This document shows positions 13,504 through 63,824 of a DNA stretch of 64,000 nucleotides, in pieces. A program made the translations under genes and the position numbers. The first letter of the stretch is position 1; each line of letters begins with the position of its first letter. The stretch comes from Planctomycetaceae bacterium. GTDB lineage: Bacteria > Planctomycetota > Phycisphaerae > Phycisphaerales > SM1A02. The stretch is from contig CANLHK010000002.1 in assembly GCA_947490615.1 (NCBI GenBank), forward strand, positions 124,001-188,000. Reading direction: 5' to 3'. The notes below the pieces were generated by a model. The model was not told the DNA's origin, did no database searches, and saw nothing but the letters and a program-made list of their open reading frames with translations.

Positions 13504-14862
13504 CTACGGATTGGAGGAGTGCGTTACAGGGGCGCTGCGAAGAAGCGTTTCCAGCTCGGCGCGGGGCCGGGACCCGACGAAGGCGCATTCGATCCGCCCA
13601 TTCTGATCGAGCACCACGCACGTCGGAAATGCCGCCACGGAGTCGAGCGGGGGCGGAAATGTGGCGGAGGTTCCTGCCACGGGAGTCTCGATGCCGTGCT
13701 TGAGCACAAACGCGCGGACGGACTCTGCCGCAACGAGGGGATCGCACACGAGGAGCTTGCAACCACCCTCGAGCTCGACGAGCTCATGGAGAAGGATCAG
13801 AGCGTCAGCAGATGGAGAGCTCTCACAGCTCACGAACAGGATGAGGAGCCGTGAAGTCTCGGGCGGAGCTGCGAGCGAGAGCTCGTGGAGTCCACCGCCA
13901 TCAAGAGCCTGAATTGCCGTGCTTTCCACCGTTCGACCGCGCCAACGCTCGACCTCGCGCATCGCATCTCTTCCAAGCAGAACACTTGCGAGCAGTGATC
14001 CCCAAAGGATGAGCGCGACAATGCTTGCGAGGATTGCGCAGGAGCTCGCGCCGATCCCGACAAGCACGACAGCTCGCCGTGATCCTGAGCTCCACAGGTC
14101 GATGCCAGCACGGAGCCCAAGGGCACCGAATCCAAGTCCAAGCAGGAGCGGGCTGGTGGCAAGTCCGATGACTCCCCAGGCCAAGGGAGCGACACTGGCT
14201 TTTCGCCGACGCCACTGTTCGTCGAGGTCATCGAGCTCGTGATTGCTCTCGGAATCGAGCTCAGGCGAGAGCTCGTGTTCGAGCTCTGAACCGAGCTCAG
14301 GCTTCACCGCTGGCCTGAGCTCTGGCGTGAGCTCACGCCCGAGCTCTGGCGTGAGCTCTCGCCCGAGCTCTCGCCCGAGCTCTCCCCCGAGCTCTCCCCC
14401 GAGCTCTCCCCCGAGCTCTCCCCCTGGGGCGCGCTCATCGGAGCTCCCGATCCTCAGTGGCAGGCTGCTCTTCCTTCGTAACAGCTTTCGTAACAGCTGA
14501 CGCGCTCTGGACGGCAACGACCGTTCTGCGGAATTGGCGAGGCGGCGTGAGGGCTCACTGACAGCGACGAGCATCATGACTCCGACAACGATCAGCGGGA
14601 TCCCCGGCACGATCGGCAGGACTCCGAGGATGAGGCCGACCACGATGAAGAACCCGCCGGTCAGTCCCATGGCAACGCGGGCAAGCTGGGAGCGCTTGGC
14701 GGTCGAGGGCGGAAACAGCTCATCGGAGCTCGGGAGAGCGGACGGAACGGGTTGTGGGTCGTCAGGCATGGTGCTCAAAGGCAACGCTGAGCGTCGCGGA
14801 CCAGAGGGTAGAGACGACGGCCAACAGGACCGGCGGGTCCCGTGGTCGCGCGCGGAGCCCAA
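13504..14862 (-). CDS. Membrane protein with (xxEL)n tetrapeptide repeat and thioredoxin-fold-like C-terminus
   Basis: Hydrophobic N-terminal pair, GGELGGELGGELGRELGRELTPELGRELTPEL repeat, second TM cluster, C-terminal LLILFVSCESS...FPTCVVLDQNGRIECAFVG. Confidence 0.6.
   Translation of the reverse strand: MGSARDHGTRRSCWPSSLPSGPRRSALPLSTMPDDPQPVPSALPSSDELFPPSTAKRSQLARVAMGLTGGFFIVVGLILGVLPIVPGIPLIVVGVMMLVAVSEPSRRLANSAERSLPSRARQLLRKLLRRKSSLPLRIGSSDERAPGGELGGELGGELGGELGRELGRELTPELGRELTPELRPAVKPELGSELEHELSPELDSESNHELDDLDEQWRRRKASVAPLAWGVIGLATSPLLLGLGFGALGLRAGIDLWSSGSRRAVVLVGIGASSCAILASIVALILWGSLLASVLLGRDAMREVERWRGRTVESTAIQALDGGGLHELSLAAPPETSRLLILFVSCESSPSADALILLHELVELEGGCKLLVCDPLVAAESVRAFVLKHGIETPVAGTSATFPPPLDSVAAFPTCVVLDQNGRIECAFVGSRPRAELETLLRSAPVTHSSNP
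14228..14440. repeat. GAGCTC array, 12-bp period
   Basis: On the minus strand: GAGCTCGGGGGA x4, GAGCTCGGGCGA x2, GAGCTCACGCCA, GAGCTCGGGCGT, GAGCTCACGCCA, GAGCTCAGGCCAGCGGTGAAGCCT, GAGCTCGGTTCA, GAGCTCGAACAC, GAGCTCTCGCCT, GAGCTCGATTCC. Confidence 0.95.
14475..14498. repeat. Perfect tandem 12-bp duplication TTCGTAACAGCT x2
   Basis: Read directly. Confidence 0.95.
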
Positions 14863-26124: not shown

Positions 26125-26270
26125 GCTCGAATCGTAAGGAAACCCAGTCTGAGTTCGAGGCGCATGAGCTCCGCTTGGCTTGCCGCCGTGAGTTCTGCGG
26201 TCGTCAAACCGCCAAGCTCCACCGCTTCAAAGTCTCATAATATGTATTCTGTAAAGTGGAGTGCTGAGGC

Positions 26271-26356
26271 GATCAGCTCTCGCAGTGAGCTCTCGCGCCG
26301 AGCTCTCTTGCTCAGCTCTTCTGAGCAAGAGCTGACTCGTAGAGCTCTGCCCGAGC
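26271..26356. repeat. GAGCTC/CAGCTC array, about 13-bp period
   Basis: cagctctcgcagt gagctctcgcgcc gagctctcttgct cagctcttctgagcaa gagctgactcgta gagctctgccc gagcg. Confidence 0.9.
26305..26331. other. Hairpin over the kinase stop codon
   Basis: CTCTTGCTCAG CTCTT CTGAGCAAGAG perfect 11-bp stem, 5-nt loop; no T-run. Confidence 0.8.
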
Positions 26357-62181: not shown

Positions 62182-62395
62182 CCCACCACCCTAACGGCCC
62201 GAGCTCACCCTGATGAGCTCCGCAACTCGTGGCCCTGAACCAAATTGTGGACGGCCGCCCCCAACCCCCTTGCGGACGGAGTTCGTTTGGGCGAACATCT
62301 CCCAAACAAATTCTATTGCTCATACCGAACAACCGCCGAATACCTCCTCGTCATGCAGCGCACCACCCACAACTCCGCACAGTTTGGCGACTCCG

Positions 62396-62618
62396 CCGAG
62401 CTCGGGGAGAGCTCACGGGCTGGCGCGTCGGCAACCCGTGCGGGCGATGGAACATCGCTCGCGTTCCATCTAGTTGTTCGTCTGCAGCCGCGGGGGAAAC
62501 GCGCGCTCTGGACCTCGCCACGAGCTGACTCGAGAGCTGACTCACGAGCTGGTTCACGAGCGGCCTCAGGAGCTCACTCGAGAGCTCACTCGAGAGCTCT
62601 GGCGACAGCTCTCGCGAC
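62396..62618. repeat. GAGCTC-type array, mainly 12-bp period
   Basis: GAGCTCGGGGA GAGCTC at 62399; then from 62522 GAGCTGACTCGA GAGCTGACTCAC GAGCTGGTTCAC GAGCGGCCTCAG GAGCTCACTCGA GAGCTCACTCGA GAGCTCTGGCGA CAGCTCTCGCGA CAG. Confidence 0.93.
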
Positions 62619-62634
62619 AGAAAGTGAGTGCCTC

Positions 62635-63324
62635 ATGCACCGCGACGCGTCCTCTCATTCTTCTTCTGCCTCTTCTGCTTCTGCTGCCGCCGTCCAACTC
62701 GACCCAGCTCTGCTCGACACCGACTCCGCGCCGAGCAGCTCAACGCGCAACCGAAGCTCGGTCGACGAGCTCAGCACTCGCGACGAGCTCCGCGAGTGGC
62801 CGCTCCTCATCCTCGGACCCGGTGCGGACTACACGCATCGGTATGTGGCAGTCGGAGGTGTTGTCGAGCGTCGCCTTGGCGAGTCCACGCACGAAACCCT
62901 CGCTGTACCGACTCAACCGATTCTGCCGCTCCTCTTCGGCGCACTTCGCGCGTTGAAGACGCAGTTCCGCTCATTCGCGCTTGAGATCTTCACAACCGAC
63001 GGTGTGCCGTCGGTCGTTCCACTCTCCATTTCCGCCTCTCGATTCCCATCTCGATCCGCCCGTACCTCAAACTTCGAGCACCACCATGGCAAGCAAGTCG
63101 AAAACACCAGGCAGCCCGCTCAGTCTCACCCCGAAGCAGCTGCGGGTGTTGCAGCTGGTGGACCACGACCGACGAACCAAGGGCTACTCGCCGACGATGC
63201 AGGAGCTCGCAGACCAACTCGGCATCAGCAAGGTCACGGTGTTCGAGCACATCGAGGCTCTCATCGCCAAGGGCGCCCTGATGCGCGATGCGAACAAAGC
63301 ACGCTCTTTGACGCTGTCGCCTGA
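62635..63324 (+). CDS. Doubtful ORF upstream of and overlapping lexA
   Basis: Open frame with a plausible middle segment (RDELREWPLLILGPGADYTHRYVAVGGVVERRLG) but it overlaps lexA by about 240 bp in another frame. Confidence 0.25.
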   Translation: MHRDASSHSSSASSASAAAVQLDPALLDTDSAPSSSTRNRSSVDELSTRDELREWPLLILGPGADYTHRYVAVGGVVERRLGESTHETLAVPTQPILPLLFGALRALKTQFRSFALEIFTTDGVPSVVPLSISASRFPSRSARTSNFEHHHGKQVENTRQPAQSHPEAAAGVAAGGPRPTNQGLLADDAGARRPTRHQQGHGVRAHRGSHRQGRPDARCEQSTLFDAVA

Positions 63325-63787
63325 AGTCGCGTTGCCGATGATGGAGGAAGATGTTCCGTCGAGGCAGATCGACAGCGACATCGAGGAACGGCTCGCGTTT
63401 CCGCTTGTGGGACGCATTGCTGCGGGCCATCCTGTCGAAAAGTTTGAGCAACACGAATCGCTGGCCCTCGAAGAGCTCTTTGGTCCCCGCAGTCGTTCTG
63501 GATCGCGCCGCGCAGGAACGACTTTCGCGTTGCAGGTCGACGGCATGTCGATGCGTGAAGAGGGGATCCTCGACGGCGACTATGTGCTCGTCGATCAACG
63601 AAGCACTGCGCGCAACGGTGAGCGCGTCGTGGCGCTTCTTCCCAACGGCGAGACGACGCTCAAGACTTTCTACAAAGAGGCAGACGGCCGCATTCGGTTG
63701 CAGCCCGCCAATCCAGATTTTGAGCCGATCATCGTCTCGGACTGCACGATTCAAGGCGTCGTCATCGGCGTCCTAAGGCGATACTGA
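63086..63787 (+). CDS. lexA: LexA repressor
   Basis: LTPKQLRVLQLVDHDRRTKGYSPTMQELADQLGISKVTVFEHI; GRIAAGHP; QVDGMSMREEGILDGDYVLVDQ; GERVVALLPNGETTLK. Confidence 0.93.
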   Translation: MASKSKTPGSPLSLTPKQLRVLQLVDHDRRTKGYSPTMQELADQLGISKVTVFEHIEALIAKGALMRDANKARSLTLSPEVALPMMEEDVPSRQIDSDIEERLAFPLVGRIAAGHPVEKFEQHESLALEELFGPRSRSGSRRAGTTFALQVDGMSMREEGILDGDYVLVDQRSTARNGERVVALLPNGETTLKTFYKEADGRIRLQPANPDFEPIIVSDCTIQGVVIGVLRRY

Positions 63788-63824
63788 GGCGAGACTGAGG
63801 CGAGACTGAGGCGAGACTGAGGCG
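63783..63824. repeat. Tandem 11-bp repeat ACTGAGGCGAG, 3.8 copies
   Basis: actgaggcgag actgaggcgag actgaggcgag actgaggcg read directly. Confidence 0.95.

Follow-up and report, generated by a model that had tools for sequence, protein, structure and literature searches.

In the window analysed here, a stretch of 64,000 nucleotides, a tandem array inside a membrane protein frame keeps the palindromic hexamer GAGCTC constant, while the 6 nt between successive copies vary. This locus raises the question of what holds one half of a 12-bp unit fixed: the encoded protein, a factor that reads the DNA word, or the way in which the array is copied.

Array A and its gene frame

14228–14446, minus strand: array A, a GAGCTC array of 12-bp units located by hexamer mapping, at the junction of two genes of relatives
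13504–14763, minus strand: single open frame spanning two membrane protein genes of relatives, from the frame and comparison with 13 relatives
About 14458–14763, minus strand: small membrane protein gene, weakly DUF5362/DUF454/PGPGW-like, part of the joined frame
About 13507–14220, minus strand: second membrane gene, part of the joined frame
13753–13883, no strand: AGCTC cluster adjoining array A, in the coding part of the second membrane gene (halo, see below)

Array A contains 15 exact GAGCTC copies (14233–14446), of which 14 share one 12-bp register (14233–14418) that is interrupted by two degenerate units, gcggtg and gagagc; the 15th copy, at 14441, is out of register. Some of the minus-strand spacers recur (GGGGGA three times, GGGCGA and ACGCCA twice each), and others occur once (GGGCGT, AGGCCA, GGTTCA, GAACAC, TCGCCT, GATTCC and GATGAC). 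Read on the minus strand, the frame gives (xxEL)n. The first-pass annotation had described about 15 minus-strand units of constant GAGCTC plus variable 6 nt that encode (xxEL)n, and both the mapping and the frame agree with this description.

The locus holds two genes with a stop between them in all 13 relatives read, and a single open frame here. The putative gene fusion at array A is read from this frame only, because the stop-removing change gave an ambiguous alignment.

GAGCTC arrays across the genome and the level of constraint

A whole-genome pattern search detected GAGCTC-N6 triplets at four loci only: A, B, C and D. Coordinates outside the window refer to C2, the contig that carries it (window position 26230 is C2:150230), or to contig C16.

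C2:206158–206373, outside the window: array B, 18 of 18 GAGCTC exact, noncoding, between the polA stop and tRNA-Asp
C16:35292–35513, different contig, outside the window: array C, protein linker in the EL frame
62519–62620, plus strand: array D, a weaker 12-bp array upstream of lexA (3 GAGCTC, 3 GAGCTG, GAGCGG, CAGCTC)
62706–62789, no strand: AGCTC cluster adjoining array D
26215–26346, no strand: loose AGCTC-rich cluster touching the dif site, in the fur/kinase intergenic region and the kinase gene 3' end

A scan that made no use of the hexamer and covered 1.66 Mb of the 3.26-Mb genome ranked B, C and A first by length among 12-bp arrays, and GAGCTC is the invariant part of each; one unit of array C reads GAGTTC and lies outside the longest run. 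Among 85,462 species genomes, with the source genome excluded, only 45 stretches with four GAGCTC-N6 units occur, the longest having 11. A literature search retrieved nothing specific on a GAGCTC 12-bp array. GAGCTC arrays had been announced at 26.3 and 62.4–62.6 kb as well: the array at 62.5 kb exists but is weak, with three exact units at 62570–62599, and the site at 26.3 kb is a non-periodic cluster of seven AGCTC words in 131 bp, with exact hexamers spaced 13 and 42. No other 5-mer in the genome is as clustered as AGCTC, with 8 clusters versus 0.2 expected. Contig C16 carries one of them, and the other seven span C2 between 12.5 kb left and 91 kb right of dif. One of these seven, at C2:240.8k, was rejected as an array, as it reads as a coding coiled coil. 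The idea that the arrays are copies of one another is not supported, because their spacers differ.

The surroundings of array D show features of their own. Some 700 bp upstream of lexA, noncoding DNA (about 62262–62370) is 74–88% conserved in 12 siblings and carries GTTTGGGCGAACAT and CCGAACAAA words; by its sequence it could be a promoter with putative LexA-type operators. Directly before lexA lies a small ORF (62629–63063) without a Pfam match, and a stretch related to it, with about 33–41% identity, is found upstream of lexA in 12 siblings. The lexA 3' end contains an 11-bp tandem repeat, AGGCGAGACTG, in 4.5 copies (63776–63824).

The window has 87 GAGCTC sites versus 40.6 ± 6.1 in dinucleotide shuffles. 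The expectation that the count would also exceed a Markov model genome-wide is not borne out: 402 sites were counted in 464 kb versus 390.9 expected (4th-order Markov), and the excess is therefore local rather than genomic. Outside the arrays, coding and intergenic DNA have the same density (0.75/kb), and GAGCTC pairs show no preference for 12-bp spacing. The signal is thus confined to the arrays and their surroundings.

The constraint on the arrays acts at the DNA level, because array B is noncoding. The EL-frame ORF of this array continues into the tRNA; in 14 relatives this locus consists of no more than a short spacer that carries the tRNA promoter. The proposal of a DNA-level signal is borne out by the 18 of 18 hexamers in this polA/tRNA-Asp spacer and by the occurrence of GAGCTC in all three of the longest 12-bp arrays. 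Selection of Glu-Leu tetrapeptide repeats (xxEL)n in protein, with codon preference yielding GAGCTC, would account for the translation of arrays A and C in the EL frame and draws on preferred codons, GAG (62%) and CTC (49%). It is nevertheless very unlikely and already refuted for array B. Codon choice fails to explain A and C too, because GAGCTC encodes only 27% of the EL pairs in other genes, where GAACTC is commoner; the cores of A and C hold no EL pair with another codon pair. EL is also not kept at the array sites in relatives, and the extra GAGCTC sites around the arrays occur in the SS frame too.

How firmly the fixed half is established depends on whether the arrays are taken singly or together. 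In neutral simulations, P is 0.23 (A), 0.024 (B) and 0.20 (C) if the register may be chosen freely, and 0.03 (A), 0.002 (B) and 0.03 (C) if the hexamer is fixed beforehand. The case is modest or weak for each array taken singly and strong jointly, because one hexamer is common to all three. The fixed half, which suggested selection or a copying mechanism to the first-pass annotation, is thus supported for the arrays together and weakly for each alone; of the two suggestions, selection on the hexamer is the less likely and the copying mechanism the likelier.

The comparison with relatives, which records presence or absence between species with one genome per species, bears on the age of the arrays. 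Array A is absent from the same site in all 13 genus relatives and array B in all 14, which is why the GAGCTC arrays are judged young and appear to be lineage-specific. At the array C linker, the orthologous proteins of relatives have other short repeats, e.g., VVED, EVEA, VVVED and LEDE, which marks the linker as a hot spot of repeat turnover. In the C16 membrane protein (L024:14656–16413), the acidic linker has a short tandem repeat that differs from species to species almost throughout the genus.

Ordinary neutral minisatellites of a repeat-rich genus, with the common hexamer and its constancy due partly to chance and partly to a detection effect, are an unlikely explanation, even though A and C fit neutral drift with free register. 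Relatives do have short tandem arrays whose units are constant in part, and no period is commoner here than 12 bp. In the parts read, short-period arrays number about 100/Mb in the relatives G001 and G004 versus 26/Mb here; those of G001 and G004 use motifs other than GAGCTC, and the conserved cores of relatives' arrays are often non-palindromic. Against chance stand the recurrence of GAGCTC in the sample's three longest arrays, the clustering of AGCTC beyond that of any other 5-mer and the halo of extra GAGCTC sites.

The CTCGAG arrays of relatives were considered as a sign of a general palindrome rule. Palindromy is not general in the genus, because these arrays are chiefly coding LE/ED repeats, with a few intergenic ones. 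The most clustered 5-mer in relative G001 (L240–L259) is CATGA, with 7 clusters versus 0.04 expected, at several loci and with periods of 11–16; another species may thus have a recurrent core of its own.

The dif site, the halo and possible readers of GAGCTC

26230–26257, plus strand: candidate dif site (replication terminus), AAGTCTCATAATATGTATTCTGTAAAGT, 28 bp, with XerC/XerD-arm sequence; candidate by sequence and skew

The 28-bp sequence at 26230–26257 (C2:150230) is a strong dif candidate, as it is present in single copy and lies near the skew switch; the maximum of the cumulative GC skew of C2 is broad, around 150–170 kb. A near-identical sequence occurs once per genome in 9 of 16 genus genomes, including the source genome, and it coincides with the GC-skew maximum in G004 (208.3 versus 209 kb) and in G001 (81.6 versus 81 kb). 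An earlier genome-wide prediction of dif failed for Cyanobacteria and Planctomycetes (PMC3025954). The site is worth notice beside this failure for Planctomycetes, since the genus looks planctomycete-like.

Three of the four array loci (A, B and D) and the 26.3-kb cluster all lie within 56 kb of dif, a clustering that was recognised after the fact; array C is on the unplaced contig C16 and may be far from dif. The AGCTC cluster beside dif is absent in all eight relatives read. The arrays are also flanked by additional GAGCTC sites: the DNA within 500 bp of the four arrays holds 22, versus about 2.7 expected, a count that rests on four loci examined once the arrays were known. At B, C and D, a weaker excess continues for a few kb. 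The halo sites in the genes next to A and B mostly align gap-free to siblings and are substitutions, which fall in EL and SS frames; at one of them, a PolA Glu-Arg pair that is kept in 14 of 14 siblings has its Arg replaced.

Selected binding sites, at which a DNA-binding protein, e.g., a terminus-organising or regulatory one, reads GAGCTC and leaves the spacers free, would suit a hexamer that is constant in noncoding DNA, arrays close to dif and a halo substitution that hits the conserved PolA pair. This reading has a low probability, since none of the relatives read has the arrays at the corresponding sites, and a gene junction, a 3' spacer and a protein linker have no common regulatory logic. 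In addition, GAGCTC density across the terminus region is near background once 1 or 2 kb around the clusters is removed (ratios 1.18 and 1.11). A dispersed terminus-wide binding motif is therefore disfavoured and was rejected, as the extra sites do not extend beyond 1–2 kb of the arrays. The more specific version, in which GAGCTC is a newly recruited terminus-proximal signal, its arrays and single sites around dif are bound by a protein specific to the species, and selection introduces the hexamer into coding DNA despite conserved residues, is considered quite improbable. If a protein does read the arrays, they would be a newly evolved terminus signal.

A restriction-modification footprint, with a GAGCTC-specific (SacI-like) enzyme or methyltransferase driving or protecting the arrays, was suggested by the first-pass annotation and would suit the hexamer, a classic type II site. 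The cognate methyltransferase envisaged there did not emerge: a search that covered C5-methyltransferases gave no match in this genome. GAGCTC is also neither in excess nor avoided genome-wide, and a footprint of this kind is highly unlikely.

Proposed slippage and template switching, and known systems

The preferred reading, which is given about an even chance of being correct, is that the GAGCTC arrays are young lineage-specific minisatellites that form at the DNA level, are concentrated near dif and grow by palindrome- or microhomology-anchored slippage plus template switching. Slippage and template switching, like the part played by the terminus, are what we infer; observed are the arrays with their DNA-level signal, the lack of them in relatives, the closeness of dif and the extra sites around them. 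The many short-period arrays of G001 and G004, built on other motifs, also count in favour of this reading. The self-complementary hexamer would be the anchor of array growth. GAGCTC copies 12 bp apart could misalign on each other whatever the spacer sequence, and each pair could form a hairpin with a 6-bp stem and a loop of 6 nt. Because misalignment and folding would be independent of the spacer, units with an intact hexamer would go on being copied while the spacers drift. Template switching between short inverted-repeat arms would homogenise the arms, might invert a spacer and could put new GAGCTC into neighbouring coding DNA as indel-free substitutions. Homogenised arms and inverted spacers are known from template switching at short inverted repeats (PMC8604942), and the quasipalindromes of E. 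coli undergo the same class of event (PMC7202029).

Reverse-complement spacers are present in array A (P = 0.001), and none are inverted in B and C. Relative to dinucleotide shuffles, A, B and C all fold much better (z −4.8 to −6.7), and two other arrays have z of −1.6 and −2.9 on the same comparison. The spacers were considered as the source of this hairpin potential, but only array A folds better than spacer-permuted controls. Since B and C gain nothing over these controls, the palindromes alone suffice for their folding. The hairpin nuclease SbcD (TIGR00619) has matches in 13 of 14 control genomes and in none of the 16 from the genus. Its apparent absence is possibly permissive; being genus-wide, it cannot explain arrays that are specific to one species. 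Counting against slippage and template switching are the lack of inverted spacers and of extra folding in B and C, the halo sites up to a few kb distant, which is far for short-range template switching, the often non-palindromic cores of relatives' arrays and the position of array C, which may be far from dif. If true, this origin would make the genome a natural record of the process, with arms that stay fixed, loops that vary freely, spacers that invert and substitutions that enter genes, near the terminus of a genus in which SbcD is not detected, and a testable case of a mutational process that mimics selection on a DNA motif.

With bacterial minisatellites (VNTRs), whose units range from about 10 to 60 bp, the arrays share head-to-tail 12-bp units, species specificity and a location in spacers and protein linkers; they differ in that half of each unit is a constant palindrome, which recurs at several unlinked loci. 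CRISPR arrays have repeats of about 23–47 bp, longer unique spacers and cas genes, and the 6-bp constant part with 6-nt spacers does not fit this class. The sites matS (bound by MatP) and KOPS (FtsK) are dispersed and kept between species; matS is palindromic and KOPS is polar. GAGCTC resembles them in its position near dif, whereas it is arrayed and lineage-specific, lacks region-wide enrichment of the matS kind (1.18 and 1.11) and, being its own reverse complement, cannot be a polar word like KOPS. REP/BIME elements are likewise palindromic and partly intergenic, but REPs are dispersed elements of 20–40 bp (PMC3733652) and not a hexamer within a 12-bp tandem array. HIP1 of cyanobacteria (GCGATCGC) is also a short palindrome repeated within one lineage; it is dispersed and in excess genome-wide, whereas GAGCTC is clustered and occurs at expectation, 402 versus 390.9 (PMC4390886 for HIP1). 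Quasipalindrome template-switch mutation (PMC7202029, PMC8604942) acts on single inverted repeats at short range, whereas here the event is inferred and the arrays are tandem, with a halo that extends across hundreds of bases; the likenesses are homogenised arms, indel-free substitutions and, in array A but in neither B nor C, inverted spacers.
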